Shown one piece after another: positions 5,594 to 39,981 of a stretch of 40,577 bases of DNA (its first letter is position 1; each line of letters opens with the position of its first letter). The translations under genes were made by a program, and so were the position numbers. This DNA comes from a virus. Where the stretch lies: positions 1 through 40,577 of the IMG/VR virus record IMGVR_UViG_3300028393_001381. One strand, given 5' to 3'. The notes under the pieces are model-generated. The model had not been told where the DNA came from. It did no database searches and worked only from the letters and a program-made list of their open reading frames with translations.

Positions 5594-6190
5594 ATGCAAG
5601 AACGTGTAATATTAGATTTGCCAAGAATTAGTGTATTCGAAGATGTTGTGCCATTAGATGTATGCGATGCCATAGTTGCCAAATACAAAGATGCAATGAA
5701 TCCCAATGCTGGTATAGAAAGTCGTGAGCAGACTTATGGACAGATTACAGAAGAGGTAGAACAACGTAGTATTAGTTGGGATACTGATCCTGCTGACAGG
5801 CAGTATTTTAAAAGTTTGTTAGCTACTACGGTAGGCATTCCTGAAAGTCATGTAGAAGCTGGCGACATTTATTTTTATGAAACAGGACAATACTTTGGAT
5901 TGCATCACGATTATCCATACAACCCTAAAGTAGTACCTTATTACAGTCTAGGCGGCGACCGCAAGGCAACTGCTATTTTTTGGTTCAACGATGATTATAT
6001 AGGCGGACGCTGTACATGGCCCAGCTTGGGTGTTACTGTAGAACCTAAGAAAGGCGGAGTTATGTATTTCGAATACGACTACCCAGACGAAACTATAAAC
6101 GAGTCAACTATACACGAGTCATTGCCTGTCACTGAAGGACAAAAGTGGATTGCGGCATTTTTTATGAGTAATGGGCCGAGAGTAGAATGA
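5594..6190 (+). CDS. 2OG-Fe(II) oxygenase, prolyl-4-hydroxylase-like
   Basis: The 198-residue protein has the double-stranded beta-helix signature of prolyl-4-hydroxylase-type oxygenases: HHDYPY with His104-x-Asp106, a central GGDRKATAIFWFND segment, distal His174 and Lys184 (TEGQKW) for the 2-oxoglutarate carboxylate. Such enzymes hydroxylate amino-acid side chains or small molecules using Fe(II), O2 and 2-oxoglutarate. The ATG at 5594 is chosen because TAGGAG (5581-5586) gives a good ribosome site; longer in-frame extensions would overlap the upstream gene heavily. It follows the radical SAM gene by 10 nt and overlaps the next by 4 nt. Confidence 0.85.
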   Translation: MQERVILDLPRISVFEDVVPLDVCDAIVAKYKDAMNPNAGIESREQTYGQITEEVEQRSISWDTDPADRQYFKSLLATTVGIPESHVEAGDIYFYETGQYFGLHHDYPYNPKVVPYYSLGGDRKATAIFWFNDDYIGGRCTWPSLGVTVEPKKGGVMYFEYDYPDETINESTIHESLPVTEGQKWIAAFFMSNGPRVE

Positions 6191-6873
6191 ATATAACAAA
6201 CTGGACACCTTTTTACAAATATGATAATGACGGCAAACCTAATTGCATGTCACAGCAAACCTACGAGCCGTTAATAAGCCCCGATGGTAAAATATTTTGT
6301 GCTAATTATGACTGGCAAAATAATTATCAACGTATATGGCAACCCGATCGTGAAGGTTATACACAAGAAGTAGTTGAATATTTTTTTAACAAAGAAGTAG
6401 AATATGCTAGCCGTTTTAAAGACAAACCATATAGCCCAGACATAGTTGATATAGATTATGCTAACAAACGCATATTTTATAATTGGGGCACTAGTTGCAA
6501 TGCACTCTTATACGGCAATAAGGGCGATATGCCTATGCATTGGCGAGAGCAAGTTTTTAATATGCTACTAGACGCATATAATAACGGAGTCTATAAACTT
6601 ACAATGTATCCTCATTGTTTTTATGTTGACTACGGAGATCAGTTGCGTACAATTGATTGGTACGGATGTGTCGAAATAGCAGATCCTTTCATTGAGGCCA
6701 AGTACATGGACGGTATCATACACGATACTGCTCAATCTCGTCTTGATGAAACAGGCGACTTAGTTGACGGCAAATATAATATGGAACTTATGTTTAAAGG
6801 ATCTTTAGGTACGCATGTATTATGGGGAAGTGAAAACATGCAATGGATTTATAGAGAAATATTTAATGGCTAA
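6187..6873 (+). CDS. Kinase-fold-like protein, paralogue of the gene at 18071-18766
   Basis: The order of features resembles a small aminoglycoside/choline-kinase-type fold: an N-terminal beta region (ISPDGKIFCANYDW), a helix with a conserved Glu (NKEVEYASRF), a strand-turn (VDIDYANKRIFYNW), then YKLTMYPHCFYVDYG and RTIDWYG where kinases have the catalytic loop and metal-binding Asp. The usual HxDxxxxN loop is not intact (a Pro-His pair sits there), so it may be a pseudokinase or have altered chemistry. The paralogue on the other strand aligns over its whole length. The assignment is by pattern only. Confidence 0.5.
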   Translation: MNITNWTPFYKYDNDGKPNCMSQQTYEPLISPDGKIFCANYDWQNNYQRIWQPDREGYTQEVVEYFFNKEVEYASRFKDKPYSPDIVDIDYANKRIFYNWGTSCNALLYGNKGDMPMHWREQVFNMLLDAYNNGVYKLTMYPHCFYVDYGDQLRTIDWYGCVEIADPFIEAKYMDGIIHDTAQSRLDETGDLVDGKYNMELMFKGSLGTHVLWGSENMQWIYREIFNG

Positions 6874-7438
6874 ACTAGTAGGATCTACTGAAGGTTTAAT
6901 TAGTTGGGATAAGGTCATTGCTGACATTCAGCACCACATTGGCGATTACAATACTGTTACCACTGTTGTTGATCGTAGTGAAGGACAGCATAAACAAGAC
7001 GATAAAAAGCTATCTCAATATAGAGAAATAATCGATACATGGACTAATGCTGGTTACGATTTATCAAAAATTGAATGGTGGGATTTTTATCCGGGCGAAC
7101 ATTTTGACATAGAAGTACAAAATATATTTGAAAAAATGTTTAACATCATTCCGCGCCGGGTGTTTATTAGTAAAGTACTCCCAGGTACTAATGTTCCTTA
7201 TCACTGGGATGTGGAAGACAAGGAAGATAAATGGTTAGATGAAGGCGGATTGGTCAGATATGTTTGTTTTATAGACGAACCTAAATTTGGTCATGTATTA
7301 ATCTTAGAAGACGAATGTTTTTATAATATAGAAAAACACAGCATATTTAAATGGGATTATTATAGATCCTATCACGCCGGAACTAACTGTGGCACAGAGC
7401 CTTACTATTTGTTTCATTTTTTGGGAACACCTAAATGA
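6866..7438 (+). CDS. Putative 2OG-Fe(II) oxygenase (AspH-like), tandem copy 1
   Basis: The ATG at 6866 overlaps the upstream stop by 8 nt (ATGGCTAA), the coupling used throughout the island, giving 190 residues. His113-x-Asp115 (YHWDVED) and distal His170 (SYHAGTNCG) form the facial triad of a cupin-type oxygenase, and Arg131 could help hold a carboxylate. The His-Ala-x-Asn segment resembles aspartyl/asparaginyl beta-hydroxylases. It shares WWDFYPGEHFD, FGHxxIxED and HAGTNCG with the following gene, so the two arose by tandem duplication. The substrate is unknown. Confidence 0.7.
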   Translation: MAKLVGSTEGLISWDKVIADIQHHIGDYNTVTTVVDRSEGQHKQDDKKLSQYREIIDTWTNAGYDLSKIEWWDFYPGEHFDIEVQNIFEKMFNIIPRRVFISKVLPGTNVPYHWDVEDKEDKWLDEGGLVRYVCFIDEPKFGHVLILEDECFYNIEKHSIFKWDYYRSYHAGTNCGTEPYYLFHFLGTPK

Positions 7439-7950
7439 TAGAGTACATTGGTATATCTCCTTTTAACTGGCAAGAATTAATTGGCGAGTTACAAAATCAA
7501 ATTCCTATAATTGGGCCCAAGCATACACCGGACGATAACATAAAAGGTCTTGACGAAGTTACTTCAATGTGGGATAAGGCTGGATATTACAAGCGCGGCA
7601 CTGTTGGGTGGGATATGTTTTATCCCGGGGAGCATTTTGATTATAAGATTGCAGAACAATTTGCCGAATGGTCAAACTTAAAATCATTTACTAATGCATG
7701 GATTAGTCGTATACATCCTGGGTTCTTTGCTCCAATACACTGGGATGTACAAGACAACGAACCATTACCTGATACTGTACGCTATCATGTACATATGAGC
7801 AAACCACAGTTTGGACATATCTTTATAGCCGAGGATGCTTGTTTATATAATCAACAACAAGGCGCCACTTACAAGTGGACTAGCCGAAAAGCGTGGCATG
7901 CTGGAACTAACTGTGGTATTGCGCCAAAATATATTTTTAACATTTGGTAA
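7435..7950 (+). CDS. Putative 2OG-Fe(II) oxygenase (AspH-like), tandem copy 2
   Basis: This 171-residue paralogue of the preceding gene keeps His102-x-Asp104 (IHWDVQD), distal His155 (AWHAGTNCG) and the FYPGEHFDYK block. Its start overlaps the upstream stop by 4 nt (ATGA). Two adjacent but clearly diverged copies suggest hydroxylation at two positions or on two substrates rather than simple dosage. No signal peptide or membrane segment is present. Confidence 0.7.
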   Translation: MIEYIGISPFNWQELIGELQNQIPIIGPKHTPDDNIKGLDEVTSMWDKAGYYKRGTVGWDMFYPGEHFDYKIAEQFAEWSNLKSFTNAWISRIHPGFFAPIHWDVQDNEPLPDTVRYHVHMSKPQFGHIFIAEDACLYNQQQGATYKWTSRKAWHAGTNCGIAPKYIFNIW

Positions 7951-24963: not shown

Positions 24964-25445
24964 TTTACTGTGCTAACTTGACAAGTATAAAAATTTTCAG
25001 TTCCGCAGTTGGCCGCGTAGTGTACAACTTCAGTATCAAAGTACCAAGTATCACCGGCTTGCCATCCTGTCAGTGCCCAATCATCAAATTGTACTATATG
25101 TCCAGGTTTCCAATCTTCAAGCATAATCAAATAACGTACACAATCTTCAGTGCGTACATTCTTTTTAGTTTTAAGCATATAAAAATAGTCTCGATGTACA
25201 GGAACGACTTCTCTAGGCTCTAAAGTTAACCAACATACACTACCTTCTTCAACATATAATTTTTCGTAAAATAACGGCCAGCAAGGCGGTAGCTGTTCAT
25301 TAAATGATTGTTTAAGCATTATAGGAGGTTGAGCATAGTTCGGATGCGGAACAGCGTGTGGTGCTATGGGGGTTGTATGTTCAGCGATGTATGATTTTAA
25401 ATCGTCTTGCCAAAATGGAAATAATTTATTAGCTTTGCCTTTCAT
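24960..25445 (-). CDS. Putative 2OG-Fe(II) oxygenase (AspH-like), 161 aa
   Basis: The ATG at 25445 overlaps the amidinotransferase stop by 4 nt (ATGA) and is preferred to longer frames that would overlap by about 100 nt. His84-x-Asp86 (PVHRDYFY) and distal His142 (VVHYAANCG) form the triad, and GDTWYFDTE is the strand before the distal His. A prolyl-4-hydroxylase-like Lys/Arg after it is not clear. Translation coupled to the amidinotransferase suggests that it acts on the amidinated product, for example beta- or gamma-hydroxylation; this is inference. Confidence 0.7.
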   Translation of the reverse strand: MKGKANKLFPFWQDDLKSYIAEHTTPIAPHAVPHPNYAQPPIMLKQSFNEQLPPCWPLFYEKLYVEEGSVCWLTLEPREVVPVHRDYFYMLKTKKNVRTEDCVRYLIMLEDWKPGHIVQFDDWALTGWQAGDTWYFDTEVVHYAANCGTENFYTCQVSTVK

Positions 25446-26497
25446 TGAAAGTAGTCCTCTAATGTACCTGTACGGCGTAAGTCTAGCGTAGCACAATGTA
25501 GTCCGCCACTTAATGTCATTGCATGTCTGAACTGCACAGGAACACAATCAATACCGTGTTTTTCTAATACTCGCATCAAAGGTTCTTGCTTGCTGTCACA
25601 TATAATGGTATTAGGATCAACACTAAGAATATTCATACCAATGTATGGACTGCACGGAGCAACACCGCCTGGTACTTTACTTCCTTGTGCTACGCAATCT
25701 TCAAAATAAATCTTATCCCACTTTTCAAACAACTTAGGGCAGTTACCTGGATTAACACGAGTACTGTTTAATAATACAAGTCCAGGACGTAACGGAACAA
25801 TAGTACTGTCCATATGTGCAAAACTATAGATATGTTCTGCCGCGTGTACACGATAACCCCTGCGTTCTAATACGTTGCGCAACCATTGTAAACCTAAGTG
25901 ATTACCTGTGTTGCTAATTTGAAATAATATGTCCTTGCCCAGACGTATGCAGTTAGGAGCATCAAATACTGGCTCTAAGTTTGTAAGGCTTGGAACTCCT
26001 TTAATGTCTGCAAATTGATAGCTACTGTTAGGCAGTATGGGTTTAGGTGCCGCAATCCATTCAACACCGTCTTCGATTGCTTCTAACATTATCTTGTGAT
26101 ATGCACGAGTTTCAAAATATCTAGCACGACACGGGCTAGGTGTTTCAATCATTAAATCTCCAAATGGCAATAACAAATCACGTGGGCACCAAGTATACCA
26201 TCCTGTAGTAGTCCATTCGGGTGTACTAAATTCCATAGCAGTATCTTGCACTTCTGGTCTGTGTACAATGACTCCCATACCTTTCAATGTGTCAGCAAGT
26301 CCATCTGCATCTTCGTTTGCTTCATCTATCATTGCTTGCGGATATGGACCTTCTAATAGTTTAATTTGCTCTATTGGATAGTTAGTATAGCTCATACTCA
26401 TAGTACTTGCATCTACAGTGGGCACCCTTGCATTGTCGGCCCGACCTACAATAATTTCTTCTAACGGATCCCAATGATTGTGTGTTGATATTTTCAT
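25442..26497 (-). CDS. Amidinotransferase (glycine amidinotransferase / StrB family)
   Basis: The 351-residue protein matches the family from end to end: N-terminal WDPLEEIIVGRA (9-20), CPRDLLLPFGDLMIE, EPVFDAPN with Asp179, HMDSTIVPL with His228 and Asp230, and the active-site GGLHCATLDLRR with Cys335. These correspond to the Asp-His-Cys triad of arginine:glycine amidinotransferase. The enzymes move an amidino group from arginine to a primary amine through a Cys-amidine intermediate, and in bacteria they occur in natural-product pathways. The acceptor here is unknown. It lies 2 nt after the fused radical SAM-oxygenase gene. Confidence 0.9.
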   Translation of the reverse strand: MKISTHNHWDPLEEIIVGRADNARVPTVDASTMSMSYTNYPIEQIKLLEGPYPQAMIDEANEDADGLADTLKGMGVIVHRPEVQDTAMEFSTPEWTTTGWYTWCPRDLLLPFGDLMIETPSPCRARYFETRAYHKIMLEAIEDGVEWIAAPKPILPNSSYQFADIKGVPSLTNLEPVFDAPNCIRLGKDILFQISNTGNHLGLQWLRNVLERRGYRVHAAEHIYSFAHMDSTIVPLRPGLVLLNSTRVNPGNCPKLFEKWDKIYFEDCVAQGSKVPGGVAPCSPYIGMNILSVDPNTIICDSKQEPLMRVLEKHGIDCVPVQFRHAMTLSGGLHCATLDLRRTGTLEDYFQ

Positions 26498-26499
26498 AA

Positions 26500-27993
26500 T
26501 TAAAACTCTTTTTTAGTAATTCTTAAAACAAACAGTATCCAATCTTCTTTAGAATTGTTTGTTGCTGAATGATGTAAATCTCCGTCAAACATGACTATTT
26601 GATTATTATTAAAATAAAATTGTTCATCATCTACAGTTAAAAACGCATTAGTAGGAACACATACATTGATTAATACATTGTACATGCCTTTATCAATATG
26701 GTCTTCAACATACGAATTCGGGCCAATAAAGAATACTCCTGCATAATGTAATCCCGGCAGTCCTTCTACTGTATTTTTAAAATCTTTAAATTCAGGAATA
26801 GTGTCTGTATTAACTTGAATATTAAAGTGACCAGAATCTTGCGTATATTCAATATCTTCGCTAAGAACACCAGTATTTGTTTCGTGATATACTTTATTAT
26901 CTTTACTGCTTTTAGAATACCACCATACCTCTTTACCATTCGTATCCTTAGCCATACTTCTAAGACGTGCTCTAATACTTCGCCAGTCTAAATTATTAAG
27001 AGATTCTACAGCAAGAGTTTTTACAGTATCAATTTGATCAGTATATGGATAACTACGATAGTCTAGCATAGTTGGATTTTTTAACTTGACATGCTCTAGC
27101 ATATATTTTTTATTAGGAATATCAAGCTGTTCTATCATGCTGATAAATTCTGTTTTATTGAACATATTTACTATATCTAATTTTTTAGGATATGTTAAAA
27201 CATTAGTGGTCCATTCTAAATTAATTGACTTAATGAATTCTGCTAATTTAGGCAATCCTTGCCAATTATTCAAATGTATAACTGTATGTATTACTAGTTC
27301 AAAATTTAAATTCTTTATTTGCTCTATAAATTTTATAATGTCGATCCATTTGCTTCCGCTACGGACTTTGTCGTTTAATTCTCCATAGCCATCTATGCTA
27401 AGGATAAACTTAACATGTTTGCATTCGTTTAACAATTCAATTGTTTCTTTGTCTAATAAAAATGTTCCATTAGTGTTGTATGTTACATCTAATAATGTAC
27501 GATTTGCTATTTTTAAAATTCTTAAATGTCTAGTGGTCATTAAAGGCTCACCACCTAAAAATAGTACACGATTAACGGTAGCAGGCAATGTTGTAAGATC
27601 TTCACTGCTCCTTACAATTTGAGTTATGTTAGACTTCTTTGCCCATGCACTGCTAAACTCGTGCCAGCATCCGTCACAAGTTAAATTACAAATATTATCT
27701 AAGCCTACTTCTAAAAAGTTTAAGTTTATTGTTTCAGTTGTATATTCTTCATTAAATTGCTGACGCAAACTTTTCTTGCCTAAACTTTCTTCGTAGTAAC
27801 ATTTTTGACAATTGGGATTGTAAACACCGTTACTGCTTTCTTCTCGAAGTTTTTTATATTCGGTGGTATTGAGTATGCTTACAACATTGCCTGTAAACTT
27901 AGTCACGGGTGTTTTATAACGACAGCAAGCAAACACGTTGTTGTCGTTTCTTATGTTAGTATGATGCCAAAAAGCTGAACACTTAGTTTCCAT
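26500..27993 (-). CDS. Fusion: twitch radical SAM enzyme with C-terminal 2OG-Fe(II) oxygenase-like domain
   Basis: The first 340 or so residues are a twitch radical SAM enzyme: N-terminal Cys5, Cys23-24, Cys62 and Cys65, core Cys102, Cys106 and Cys109 (CNLTCDGC), LGGEP (146-150) and SIDGYG. From about residue 360 a second domain begins with EVWWYSK. It has His432-x-Asp434 (EDHIDKG), distal His474/475 (GDLHHSATN) and Arg491 (FVLRI), the iron and 2-oxoglutarate site of AspH-like oxygenases. One chain would thus carry oxygen-sensitive radical chemistry and O2-dependent hydroxylation. No stop or frameshift separates them. Confidence 0.8.
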   Translation of the reverse strand: METKCSAFWHHTNIRNDNNVFACCRYKTPVTKFTGNVVSILNTTEYKKLREESSNGVYNPNCQKCYYEESLGKKSLRQQFNEEYTTETINLNFLEVGLDNICNLTCDGCWHEFSSAWAKKSNITQIVRSSEDLTTLPATVNRVLFLGGEPLMTTRHLRILKIANRTLLDVTYNTNGTFLLDKETIELLNECKHVKFILSIDGYGELNDKVRSGSKWIDIIKFIEQIKNLNFELVIHTVIHLNNWQGLPKLAEFIKSINLEWTTNVLTYPKKLDIVNMFNKTEFISMIEQLDIPNKKYMLEHVKLKNPTMLDYRSYPYTDQIDTVKTLAVESLNNLDWRSIRARLRSMAKDTNGKEVWWYSKSSKDNKVYHETNTGVLSEDIEYTQDSGHFNIQVNTDTIPEFKDFKNTVEGLPGLHYAGVFFIGPNSYVEDHIDKGMYNVLINVCVPTNAFLTVDDEQFYFNNNQIVMFDGDLHHSATNNSKEDWILFVLRITKKEF

Positions 27994-29017
27994 AAGCTCT
28001 CACTAAATGCCCAAACCCTTTTTGATTAAACCATTTATCAATTTCAATTTGTTCAATATTAAAAGTATCTCGTATGTAGTTTACAATTATACTATTTTCG
28101 TTAGCCAATGTAAAGAACAAACGGTAGTTATGTTCGATATCTTGTTCGATCGCTTCTTTGTGTTTGTGGCAATTTTCTAAAAAGTATGCGGTATTAGTTA
28201 CAATAGCATCGAGCCTATCTTCTTCTTTAGTCAAATAAGCATAATCTTTAATTAGCATGTATTCTTCAAAAGTTTTAAATCCTAGTTCTTTAATATAGTC
28301 AAACATTTCTGGATTAGATGCATGTAAGAACGGATGCCGCTGTACAAATGCTCTGTATGTTTTCTCTGTTAAATATTTGGAACTAATATCGCTAATATCA
28401 ATTCCTTCGGATATGATACTAAGACTTGTATTTCTAAACACTTTGGGATCGATCCATGCTGTATCATTAGTCCATATATTAGCAGATGGCTTTGTTCCGT
28501 AGTGTTTAGAAGTTTCATATACAGTATCTATGCTACGACATAGCGTTAATAGTTCTGCATAGTCAAAAGTGTAATTGCGGCACCATTCTTCTTGTTGCGC
28601 AGTCCACGGTTTAAAGAAAGTCCATTCTGCATTATCAAGCAAGCCTGCTAATCTAAACTTGTTAAGCAAACCAATACGATTGGGTCTGCTAGGTACTCCG
28701 CCTAAGAATAAAAACTTAGATGAACAATTCCATTTATGTGTAATTCTGTCTTTATAACTATTATATGTTGTGTAAAGGTTAAAATTAAAAGGTATTGTCT
28801 TAGGATAGGTAGTATTATCTACCGCTAGGCCTGGAATGAGTATTAAATCAATTTCCTCGCCAATGCGCTCAATTAATTCACCCGGATTATTATGTATAAA
28901 TCCGTCGGCTAGCATCAGGCCCAGAACAGATGTTGCATCTCCTATTTCACTTTTTAGGAGATTATATTTTTCATCTTCTGGAATCCAAAACGTTTCTAAA
29001 TTAACAATTTTATACAT
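27983..29017 (-). CDS. Glycosyltransferase-like protein (GT10/exostosin-like C-terminal signature)
   Basis: The C-terminal half contains LSIISEGIDIS, then YLTEKTYRAFVQRHPFLH and LGFKTFEEY. This is the order of motifs in fucosyltransferase-like (GT10) and related GT-B enzymes: a strand ending in Ser-Glu, Thr-Glu-Lys, a His-Pro, and Gly-Phe-x-Thr-Phe. The Glu-Lys pair is expected to bind the sugar nucleotide. The N-terminal half is less typical. It would add a sugar to an acceptor made or modified by the surrounding enzymes. Its start overlaps the aminotransferase-like gene by 8 nt. Confidence 0.6.
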   Translation of the reverse strand: MYKIVNLETFWIPEDEKYNLLKSEIGDATSVLGLMLADGFIHNNPGELIERIGEEIDLILIPGLAVDNTTYPKTIPFNFNLYTTYNSYKDRITHKWNCSSKFLFLGGVPSRPNRIGLLNKFRLAGLLDNAEWTFFKPWTAQQEEWCRNYTFDYAELLTLCRSIDTVYETSKHYGTKPSANIWTNDTAWIDPKVFRNTSLSIISEGIDISDISSKYLTEKTYRAFVQRHPFLHASNPEMFDYIKELGFKTFEEYMLIKDYAYLTKEEDRLDAIVTNTAYFLENCHKHKEAIEQDIEHNYRLFFTLANENSIIVNYIRDTFNIEQIEIDKWFNQKGFGHLVRAYGN

Positions 29018-29900: not shown

Positions 29901-30644
29901 ATGATAATGCCTTTAGAGTTCTATAACCAAAATAAAAATTGTACTTGGGAATTAGAAACAATTCCAGCTAACTTGCTAACTAACATAGAAAAAGCACGTT
30001 GGATTTTAAACGAAGCCAAATTTGGTTGGATTGAATTAGATTTAAAAATCGATACTGCTGGGTGGCAATTAGAAGCCCAGCAAGTCCAGCCTTATTTTGT
30101 AGCACACCGTGAAGAACAAAATGACGGCTGGAATAGCTGTTGTATCCATGGTATCGATGTAGATAAAACTGGAGCTTGGACTAATTATGGCTATACTGAT
30201 GAAAAGCAAGTCCCTTATAATTGGACAGACTTGTCACATAAAACTCCTATGATTAAACGTTTTTGGCAAGATATATTTCCATCAGATCATTATAGAAGAA
30301 TTAGATTTATGGAGTTAGAATCCAAGTCTGCTATTACTCCGCACAGTGATATGCCTGGCAAACTTCCTGGTGAAGCAGGTATGGATATGTTAGACTTTGG
30401 GGTTCCTGTAAATATAGCAGTTGTCCATCCAGAAGATTGCTACATGGTATTAGAAGGATACGGAATTGTTCCTTTTAAACAAGGCAAGGCGTTTATTGTA
30501 AACATACGTAATTATCACAGCGTAATAAATTTTAGTAATCAACATAGAATACATGTTATTGGACACAGTTATGGGTATGGTAGTAAACGATCAGAGTTTG
30601 CCAATTTAATTGTAAGAAGTTATGAGAAGATGAAAAATGTTTAA
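29901..30644 (+). CDS. Putative 2OG-Fe(II) oxygenase (AspH-like), 247 aa
   Basis: His148-x-Asp150 (ITPHSDMPG), distal His206 (RNYHSVIN) and Arg216 (HRIHVIGH) match the aspartyl/asparaginyl beta-hydroxylase core, with IAVVHPEDCYMVLEG as the intervening strands. About 130 N-terminal residues precede the core and are specific to this copy. Two possible ATGs (29901 and 29907) exist with no clear ribosome site. It overlaps the ANL gene by 8 nt and may act on the acid that the ANL enzyme activates. Confidence 0.7.
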   Translation: MIMPLEFYNQNKNCTWELETIPANLLTNIEKARWILNEAKFGWIELDLKIDTAGWQLEAQQVQPYFVAHREEQNDGWNSCCIHGIDVDKTGAWTNYGYTDEKQVPYNWTDLSHKTPMIKRFWQDIFPSDHYRRIRFMELESKSAITPHSDMPGKLPGEAGMDMLDFGVPVNIAVVHPEDCYMVLEGYGIVPFKQGKAFIVNIRNYHSVINFSNQHRIHVIGHSYGYGSKRSEFANLIVRSYEKMKNV

Positions 30645-32079
30645 CACTATTACTAGAGACTTTATCAGTAACAATTTTGTCTTTACTGATATACGCACGG
30701 GCAACAGTTATGATAAGAATGGTATTATAGAACGTATTGATTATTGGAAATATGTTTTAAAATATAAGTTTTATGCAAAACAACAAGAGTCTATTCTTAT
30801 TGGCATACAAGACCTTGGCATTGATTATTTTGCCATCATCATTGCTTCAGCAGAATTAAGCCTTAAAATTGTAGTAGTAGATTACAACAGAACAGACAAA
30901 TTTAAAGATTTAGAATACAACGATCCTAAAACCATACTGTTAGCACCTATTGATATATTTTTACATGATATGTCTTCTAGTATGCTAGCTTCTAAATTGG
31001 GTGCAATGGCCAAATTCAATTTCTTTATAAAACATTCTAATAGAACATACTGTACATTAGATATTAATAATTTTGCAATAGACAAAGATAATTTACCAAC
31101 AGATCGTCCAACTACCTCTGATATATTGTTTAAGGTAACTAGCAGTGGGACAACTGATGTTCCTAAAGTAATTGAACATACACACGAGTTTATACATGCA
31201 ATATCCACTAGTAACTCAAAGTTTTATAAAGGCACAGCAGTTCATGTTAATAATCTTAACCACGGTGCAAGTGCGTCAGTTACCCTGTTACCTCTATTAA
31301 CATCTGATACTGTAGATAGACATTTATTTTTTAGTTGTGACGAATCCGGAGCGATTGTTGATTTGGTTCGCGCACTAACACCTTACAAAGATGATATTGG
31401 ATATATGTCATTTCCGTATCCATTTCTTATTGATAAATTTATTGAATTTAGTAAAGAAAAAAATATTACATGGCCTAATCTAGATTTAATCACATTATCT
31501 TACATTTTAGAAAATGCTAAACATGCAGTAAGAGATGGCGTGTTTAATAGTATTACAAGTATTTTTGGATCTAATGAAACGTTAGGGCCTTTGTTTGTCA
31601 ACACAGCAACAAAGGATAAATGGGATATAGATTCTAGATACTATTCAATAACTAATGATTTTTATACTATTAAATTATCTACCGAAGGCAAAATTACAGT
31701 GACAATTCCTGTGTATAATAAAGATGTTGAAACTAATGACTACTTTGATAAAGATGGTGAATACTTTGTACACAAAGGTCGCTCTGATATGTTTAGAATT
31801 AATGGTGAAACAATTAACATGGGAACTATCAACGATTTAAACAAAAAAGACCCAAGAGTGTATATAGTAGTTGATACACTAAATCATTGTTTATATCTTG
31901 CATGTTGGGAAGAGTTAAGTATGGAAGAAATACGCACTATTAAAGAACAAATAGAAAGCAATTTTGAAAGAATTAAAATTACTAAGATACTACACTTGGA
32001 CAAATTGAGTTTTTATTATGCTATTAAGATAGACAACGAGCTCCTCCGTGAACACTTTAGGACATACAATGTTTCGTAA
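30637..32079 (+). CDS. ANL-superfamily adenylate-forming enzyme
   Basis: TSSGTTDVPK (168-177) is the phosphate-binding loop, FGSNETLG the A5 motif, and DYFDKDGEYF followed by GRSDMFRINGE the A7/A8 motifs with the ribose-binding Asp and hinge region. These enzymes activate a carboxylic acid as an acyl-AMP and pass it to CoA, a carrier protein or an amine. At 480 residues it is a single adenylation unit with no carrier or condensation domain attached. The N-terminal third is divergent. No carrier protein gene is seen nearby, so CoA or a free amine is a likely acceptor. Confidence 0.8.
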   Translation: MFNTITRDFISNNFVFTDIRTGNSYDKNGIIERIDYWKYVLKYKFYAKQQESILIGIQDLGIDYFAIIIASAELSLKIVVVDYNRTDKFKDLEYNDPKTILLAPIDIFLHDMSSSMLASKLGAMAKFNFFIKHSNRTYCTLDINNFAIDKDNLPTDRPTTSDILFKVTSSGTTDVPKVIEHTHEFIHAISTSNSKFYKGTAVHVNNLNHGASASVTLLPLLTSDTVDRHLFFSCDESGAIVDLVRALTPYKDDIGYMSFPYPFLIDKFIEFSKEKNITWPNLDLITLSYILENAKHAVRDGVFNSITSIFGSNETLGPLFVNTATKDKWDIDSRYYSITNDFYTIKLSTEGKITVTIPVYNKDVETNDYFDKDGEYFVHKGRSDMFRINGETINMGTINDLNKKDPRVYIVVDTLNHCLYLACWEELSMEEIRTIKEQIESNFERIKITKILHLDKLSFYYAIKIDNELLREHFRTYNVS

Positions 32080-38568: not shown

Positions 38569-39981
38569 TTACAGAGCGTAACGATCACTCATTACAGTCT
38601 TAAGCATGATGCCTTCTGGAGTGAACTGATCCAAGTCAGCGGCTAGCAAGCTAGTCATTATACTTGGGCTAAATCCACTTACCAATGCGACACCACTCTT
38701 GTCAGCCTTAACAGGCACGTTGTCTGAACTGTTTAGGTTCCAGAAAACAATCTGTGGCATGCTGTAGCCAGCGGCTTCGAACTTGCGTTCGATCATTTCC
38801 ATGGCGCTGTCGTCGTGCTTGGCGCATTGGTTGAACTGCATGTCACTCAAGATCAGCAACATGGCTGGCATGTCGCTGGCTGGTACTGAACCCTTAACCG
38901 CAACGTCTAGGATCTTGTCCATAGCCGCATTTAGGTTAGTGCTCATGTCCCAATCACTCTTGCTCATTTGAGCAACCTTGTCAACAATATTACCCTTTAG
39001 AGTAACAAGTTGTGGCTTGCTAGAGAAAGTCAAGAATGTGTCCTTGAACACACCCTTGTTCTTGTCTGCTAGGTACAAGCCCAAGCTGATTGAAACATCC
39101 ATGCAAGTCACATTAGTGTTCTTTCCTGCTGGGCAACTCATAGAACCACTAACGTCTACGATTGGCATGATGCTGGCATCTCCAACGTAGTTTGGCAAAG
39201 CGTCCCACTGTGCCACAATGTGGTCAGTAGCTGTCTTGTCCAAACTTGAACGGTAAGAACCGATAACACCCTTCAGCACATCATGTGGAAAGATTGCAGA
39301 GGCGTTAACCTTAACAGTCTTGTCACCACTTACCAACTTGGCCACATACTCAGCAAATGCTGGTGTGTGACGGCTGAATGCCTTCTTGTAGTTGCGCGAA
39401 GCAACACTTGGCACGTGGCTGAAGTTGATGTTGTCCCAATCTCCTGCACACATTTGGGTTTCAACAACTGTGGTCATTGTTACCAATGACTTGCGGTACT
39501 GCTTTGGAGACATTCCGAAGAATGCTCGTACTTCAGCCGCAATCTTGCCCTTACGAGGAGTCCACTTTGCGGCCAGTCCGTTCTTAGCACGTAGGGCATC
39601 GCCCAACATGGTATAAGCGGCTGACTTCAGAACTGGGTCTTGGAACACAAAGATGTCATCCCAACGACCAACTTCTGGGATCTTCTTTAGAAGAGCCAAA
39701 GCGGCGTCTGGGTCACGCTTTTCTAGATGTACTAGAATGTCGCGGAACAGTTGACGTTCACCTGCACCACCGCGCACATCACGTGCCCATTGTGCGATGC
39801 GTAGTGCTACGTCTGAGTTTTCCACGTAAGCCGCGGTGAACTCACGAGTGATGTCCTTACCACGGCTTGCGCCGATGTTGTAAAACAAGTCAACACAAGC
39901 TGATGCTGTGGACTTACGTGCCTTCATACCGTTTGCGGTACGGGCTTCTTGATTTGCTACTGCGTTTACAAATGCGTTCAT
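38569..39981 (-). CDS. Ro60/TROVE-like (DUF2828-like) protein with von Willebrand A domain
   Basis: The 470-residue protein has an N-terminal helical-repeat half with RDVRGGAGERQLFRDIL and VGRWDDIFVF, segments typical of TROVE/DUF2828 proteins, then MTTVVETQMCAGDW and NFSHVPSVAS. The C-terminal half is a von Willebrand A fold starting MPIVDVSGSMS, the DxSxS metal-binding site, with later ILSDMQF. In bacteria the Ro60 orthologue Rsr binds Y RNA and works with RNases in RNA quality control. Its codons look more GC-rich than those of the island. It has a TTAACA-N17-CATAAT promoter upstream. A phage RNA-remodelling role is inferred. Confidence 0.75.
   Translation of the reverse strand: MNAFVNAVANQEARTANGMKARKSTASACVDLFYNIGASRGKDITREFTAAYVENSDVALRIAQWARDVRGGAGERQLFRDILVHLEKRDPDAALALLKKIPEVGRWDDIFVFQDPVLKSAAYTMLGDALRAKNGLAAKWTPRKGKIAAEVRAFFGMSPKQYRKSLVTMTTVVETQMCAGDWDNINFSHVPSVASRNYKKAFSRHTPAFAEYVAKLVSGDKTVKVNASAIFPHDVLKGVIGSYRSSLDKTATDHIVAQWDALPNYVGDASIMPIVDVSGSMSCPAGKNTNVTCMDVSISLGLYLADKNKGVFKDTFLTFSSKPQLVTLKGNIVDKVAQMSKSDWDMSTNLNAAMDKILDVAVKGSVPASDMPAMLLILSDMQFNQCAKHDDSAMEMIERKFEAAGYSMPQIVFWNLNSSDNVPVKADKSGVALVSGFSPSIMTSLLAADLDQFTPEGIMLKTVMSDRYAL

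Follow-up and report, generated by a model that had tools for sequence, protein, structure and literature searches.

A single open reading frame in the window, the 40,577-bp IMG/VR virus record analysed here at its full length, appears to join a twitch radical SAM enzyme to an oxygenase-like domain, which raises the question of whether the two enzymes are truly fused and whether they act in sequence on one intermediate. The frame opens with ATG, runs on the minus strand at 26500-27993 and encodes 497 residues with zero internal stops; its coordinates are those given in an earlier note on this DNA. Our preferred reading, which we hold at roughly even weight, is a true in-frame fusion of a gene pair of T4-like phages that acts on a surface-glycan precursor. 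On this reading the fusion itself arose recently in this one phage, and the chemistry could do without it.

Both halves are complete domains in a single open frame

Each half of the chain forms a whole domain and retains its conserved catalytic residues. The family NF033640 (twitch domain-containing radical SAM) covers residues 2-311 at 179.2 bits, against a cut-off of 170. The CNLTCDGC and GGEP motifs that the earlier note had placed in the first part of the chain are present there, and C102-xxx-C106-xx-C109 and G147-G-E-P150 do not vary across the 32 radical SAM rows of the alignment. C5, C23, C62 and C65 are likewise invariant in the aligned rows and are candidate ligands of a probable auxiliary Fe-S site; Pfam SPASM, on residues 5-66, scores below its cut-off. 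Modelled from the 32 rows, the radical SAM half (residues 1-308) has a mean pLDDT of 94. Among solved structures this half comes closest to SkfB, BlsE and MoaA, with SuiB and CteB also near, and the orthologues aligned to it show 41-72% identity.

The C-terminal domain matches PF05118 (Asp_Arg_Hydrox) over residues 393-492 at 34.5 bits, with a gathering cut-off of 22.6. Structure prediction of the whole chain, which the earlier note had proposed, gave an AspH-like fold for this domain; the mean pLDDT of the full-chain model is 65, with blocks from residue 401 onward at 68-92. In structure the C-terminal part matches human AspH best (5apa, Z 14.6, rmsd 3.7, 163 aligned, VIA-align; 6yyy, Z 14.4, rmsd 2.8, 159 aligned). 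The first family other than AspH is proline 3-hydroxylase (Z 11.0), and Foldseek matches to cupins and CapF rank below AspH. When the full chain was aligned together with numerous radical SAM and AspH sequences, the AspH rows were placed wrongly, and the row sets were adjusted until these aligned. An alignment of diverse C-domains gave no usable stretch; a scan with the C-domain alone returned no relatives, and a two-row alignment retrieved only IMGVR_UViG_3300046804_002489 (hereafter L016).

Among ten aligned stand-alone AspH relatives, H432 and H475 are present in all ten, D434 in nine and H474 in none, and a profile alignment with human AspH sets H475 on H725. A predicted metal site in the C-domain is well supported by this conservation of the HxD...H pattern. 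In human AspH, R735, ten residues past the distal histidine, is the usual 2OG anchor. The aligned position in the fused chain is Trp485, and R491, which lies at +16 and is common only to the three members of oxygenase type a (see below), is therefore not the canonical 2OG arginine. The proposed residue set, H432-x-D434, H474/475 and R491, is thus retained for H432, D434 and H475 and loses H474 and R491. The family matches and conserved motifs of the two halves stand far beyond chance level. Arginine at +10 is found in 0 of 28 domains, namely the fused one and 27 downstream oxygenases, where Trp, an aliphatic residue, Cys or Phe stands instead; three other AspH genes of the window (14906, 21271 and 29901) do have it. 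Calling the domain 2OG-Fe(II) oxygenase-like holds as far as its AspH fold goes and extends to its chemistry only conditionally: the usual 2OG arginine is missing, and the domain may use 2OG and O2.

Table 1. Features of the fused frame, its neighbours and the split counterpart in L016 (window positions unless L016 is named)
Feature	Position	Strand	Basis or remark
Fused ORF, 497 aa, twitch radical SAM plus AspH-fold oxygenase-like domain	26500..27993	-	ORF call, NF033640, PF05118
Radical SAM half, residues 1-302	27088..27993	-	NF033640 above cut-off, pLDDT 94 model, 59 unfused orthologues
N-terminal twitch/SPASM-like stretch, residues 5-66	27796..27981	-	Sub-threshold Pfam SPASM; invariant C5, C23, C62, C65
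CNLTCDGC, radical SAM [4Fe-4S] motif, residues 102-109	27667..27690	-	Sequence and conservation
GGEP motif, residues 147-150	27544..27555	-	Sequence and conservation
Linker KLKNPT, residues 303-308	27070..27087	-	Alignment with L016
A6 run inside linker	27077..27082	-	One A more or fewer splits the chain
Internal ATG, Met309	27067..27069	-	Start-codon place of the separate AspH gene in L016
AspH-fold domain, residues 309-497	26503..27069	-	PF05118; human AspH Z 14.6; 52% identity to L016 gene
H432-x-D434, predicted proximal metal ligands	26692..26700	-	Conservation
H475, predicted distal metal ligand	26569..26571	-	Conservation; aligned with human AspH H725
Amidinotransferase-like gene (ADI fold family), directly downstream	25442..26497	-	Weak PF02274; synteny
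Directly upstream gene, glycosyltransferase-like by eye	27983..29017	-	Synteny
L016 radical SAM gene	5998-6918		True split counterpart of the N-terminal half
L016 AspH gene	6887-7462		True split counterpart of the C-domain

Split pairs in relatives and the junction

With the radical SAM half as query, about 90 loci were retrieved from viral contigs, and one further locus came from a Puniceispirillum MAG contig that is quite possibly a mis-binned phage contig. The fused chain occurs in none of 59 distinct radical SAM orthologues, drawn from a search set that may lack near copies of the window, so that the window is the sole case of 60. No chain spanning both halves was found in 398 Pseudomonadota genomes, and a search for literature on radical SAM-oxygenase fusions found no paper. 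The fusion is private to one phage and not an established fusion family.

An AspH-like gene lies directly downstream on the same strand in 28 of the 59 orthologues, in most cases overlapping by 3-43 nt. These downstream oxygenases comprise at least four AspH-like types (a, b, c and d), and differing types follow the radical SAM gene in L016 (6887), L018 (6917), L079 (6921), L056 (6927) and similar loci. For types a, b and d (15 loci) the AspH assignment comes from Pfam matches of representative members or from close similarity. For type c (13 loci) it is drawn from an iterated profile together with the HxD...H pattern, because Pfam did not recognise these oxygenases and hhalign returned E 0.02 at low probability; with type c set aside, the pair count is 15 of 59. 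L016 is the closest syntenic record and carries the orthologue of gene 27983, the radical SAM gene, the AspH gene and the amidinotransferase gene in this order, all separate. The earlier note had suggested comparing the halves with unfused neighbours, 21271 and 21758, which correspond at family level only and in an order reversed relative to the fusion: 21758 shares 26% identity with the radical SAM half, and 21271, which gave no BLASTP match to the C-domain, is linked only through an AspH profile.

Relative to L016, the junction holds about 23 extra nt in the window, six A among them; the L016 oxygenase begins MLDYQNYP, and the fused chain from Met309 reads MLDYRSYP. All the single-base deletions and A insertions tried in the junction of about 30 nt give a stop at codon 304-324 and separate the halves. 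With five A at 27077-27082 the radical SAM frame ends in ...VKLKIQLC with its stop at codon 310, and with seven A the stop falls at codon 314; fused and split states are therefore one base apart. Because the relatives are split and the difference is a single base, the fusion counts as an uncommon form of a gene pair that recurs, and it may even reflect a sequencing slip. Physical coupling, as the earlier note had it, keeps the support of two conserved domains in one frame and of a pair that is adjacent, unfused, in relatives, and is tempered by an architecture that is unique against 59 orthologues and one base from being split.

On a tree of the 60 radical SAM halves, built by a quick method and with long branches flagged, the presence or absence of a downstream oxygenase takes 11 changes, or 14 when oxygenase type is counted, compared with a mean of 26 for shuffled labels (all types). 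Adjacency is thus clustered but labile. All members of the window's four-member clade differ: the window is fused, L016 has a separate downstream oxygenase, L006 has a different AspH upstream, and L017, like L019, has no adjacent oxygenase. Since adjacency was gained or lost about 11 times, coupling of both reactions is plausible but not obligatory. Within the window, co-directional radical SAM/oxygenase adjacency is seen 4 times against 3.3 expected under random gene order (p 0.43), or 5 times against 3.7 with the fusion split (p 0.29). Because this is the random level, the fusion supports its own pair and makes a poor guide to the other radical SAM/oxygenase pairs of the island, the use for which it had been put forward.

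The surrounding island and the proposed chemistry

The island combines radical SAM, AspH and sugar-nucleotide genes in shuffled order, in T4-like phages. It holds UDP-glucose/GDP-mannose dehydrogenase, epimerase and DUF6356 genes and is adjoined by a tail-fibre-like Mtd_N gene (sub-threshold match). T4 gp23 capsid protein is found in 7 of the 10 larger orthologue-carrying records; the window itself is a fragment. The amidinotransferase-like gene is directly downstream also in L006, L016 (past the AspH gene), L018 and L043. The upstream gene, which had no family match, overlaps the fused frame by 11 nt and has an orthologue directly upstream in L016, L017, L018 and L043. Nearly all of the roughly 35 island genes (window 4624-33905) have orthologues in G001 (91 kb; L011-L013), shuffled in order and orientation, as if the gene set were kept and its order free. 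The G001 island also holds a gene (L006, 9682-10905, plus strand) that is flavin-dependent tryptophan-halogenase-like by eye and absent from the window. A 480-aa protein encoded at 30637-32079 (plus strand) of the window is AMP-forming ligase-like by eye (TSSGTT motif), has no Pfam match and is conserved in G001, L016 and L021. Outside the island, the DUF2828/DUF7788 gene at 38569-39981 (minus strand) is 84% identical to the part present at the G001 end.

An above-cut-off NF033640 match occurs in 3 of 398 Pseudomonadota genomes, the Puniceispirillum MAG contig among them. In G087, ABC-2 permease, RmlD, TylF and WbsX genes lie near the family member; in G122, glycosyltransferase and epimerase genes lie nearby, and phage-type recombinase genes too. 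The G087 member (L119, 8579-11143, minus strand) is one chain of 854 aa that joins ABC_tran, Wzt_C, SPASM and radical SAM in an O-antigen locus. Long bacterial open frames with radical SAM matches, such as the 856-aa one of G087, were considered as possible oxygenase fusions; that of G087 turned out to be an ABC-Wzt fusion.

According to our preferred reading, a T4-like phage would carry the radical SAM gene in an exchangeable surface-chemistry island, where in many relatives the radical SAM stop is overlapped by the start of an AspH-like iron oxygenase gene. Here a gain of about 23 nt would have brought the junction into frame, so that both enzymes would be read as one chain; since the Met309 ATG is kept, a free oxygenase might also be made. 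By means of a 5'-deoxyadenosyl radical, the radical SAM half may rearrange a carbon-based intermediate or oxidise it. Using Fe(II) and O2, the oxygenase domain may then oxidise either this intermediate or a successive one. Most likely the pair would tailor a surface-glycan precursor, which we favour because of the sugar-nucleotide genes of the island and the bacterial relative in an O-antigen locus. As substrate class, a sugar or amino-sugar precursor is likely, in whose making the amidinotransferase, aminotransferase, sugar dehydrogenase and epimerase encoded nearby would take part. The fusion would be recent and private, and dispensable for the chemistry. That the chain is a bifunctional enzyme, in which an O2-sensitive radical SAM centre works in sequence, on one intermediate, with an Fe(II) oxygenase that lacks the usual 2OG arginine, and which evolved from an overlapping pair through a small junction change, is a more specific claim that we regard as doubtful.

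A real though lesser possibility is that sequencing or assembly went wrong in the A6 run and the fusion is an artefact. The true state would then be two overlapping genes as in L016, a radical SAM protein of about 309 aa with the VKLKIQLC end and an oxygenase starting at ATG 27069. Removal of one A yields 309 codons, the normal orthologue length (301-319 in most), and makes the stop overlap the oxygenase start as ATGCTAG. All 59 relatives are unfused, and in the island almost every pair of co-directional neighbours overlaps in different frames. Against this, searching the relatives' proteins against the window revealed no further frameshift among its genes, a six-base run is short for a homopolymer error, and the L016 junction differs by more than a single base, the roughly 23 nt noted above. 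The fusion could also be true and of little consequence, a neutral recent junction mutation joining domains that work independently on unrelated substrates. The chance level of adjacency in the window and a partner oxygenase that shifts in type and position even within the four-member clade would fit this; we think it rather unlikely, however, given that the pair recurs in 28 of 59 orthologues across four oxygenase types.

Other readings keep the pair and change its chemistry. The C-domain might be a metal protein of AspH fold that uses a different co-substrate or serves a different role, not a 2-oxoglutarate oxygenase: the +10 arginine of human AspH and of the three window genes is missing from the fused domain and from 27 of 27 downstream oxygenases, and cupins also match the fold. 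We consider this improbable, because AspH is the best match by far, and type a and most of type b have an arginine at +16 or +14 on the same strand, where side parity could turn it to the barrel. It also seems unlikely that the substrate of the pair is a peptide or protein (RiPP-like or a virion protein) rather than a glycan precursor. The SPASM/twitch enzymes SkfB, SuiB and CteB act on peptides and human AspH on protein Asp/Asn, but the equally near BlsE and MoaA act on small molecules, the bacterial family members sit among polysaccharide genes, and no short precursor-peptide gene was noted beside the pair, where none was sought systematically.

Gene fusion is a classic clue that the proteins concerned cooperate, and this one points to a concrete radical SAM-oxygenase pair, split in 28 relatives, in phage islands. 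The family member in a bacterial O-antigen locus suggests what class of substrate to examine, and the split pair of L016 together with the fused chain provides a direct test case for consecutive reactions. The 2OG arginine missing from every compared partner oxygenase is a separate, checkable oddity.

Comparison with known systems

Human AspH (5apa, PF05118) hydroxylates protein Asp/Asn; it has in common with the C-domain its fold (Z 14.6) and the distal histidine H725. It carries Gly where the HxD pattern has Asp, whereas the C-domain has the full HxD...H pattern, with Trp in place of R735. The radical SAM part of the fused chain belongs with NF033640 by its match above the curated cut-off; the members retrieved are stand-alone proteins of about 300-320 aa that lack an oxygenase domain, unlike the fused chain. 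L016 differs in having two separate overlapping genes for the one chain of the window, with 70% identity for the radical SAM protein, 52% for the oxygenase and 92% for the amidinotransferase. The Wzt-radical SAM chain of G087 includes the same NF033640 family as one of its domains and stands in a surface-polysaccharide locus; there the radical SAM domain is joined to the ATPase of an O-antigen ABC exporter, with Wzt_C, in contrast to the oxygenase of the phage chain.

At the level of the island, pelagimyophages have a hypervariable host-recognition cluster with radical SAM cassettes and LPS genes, and AspH is among their core proteins (PMC7029224). The fusion is not described there; that cluster lies between VrlC and gp14, and the window is a fragment. 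In its radical SAM cassettes, LPS genes and tail-fibre genes within a plastic T4-like island, the cluster resembles the window (PMC7029224), as does a T4-like TARA genome rich in radical SAM genes, of which it has 12 (PMC5332604).
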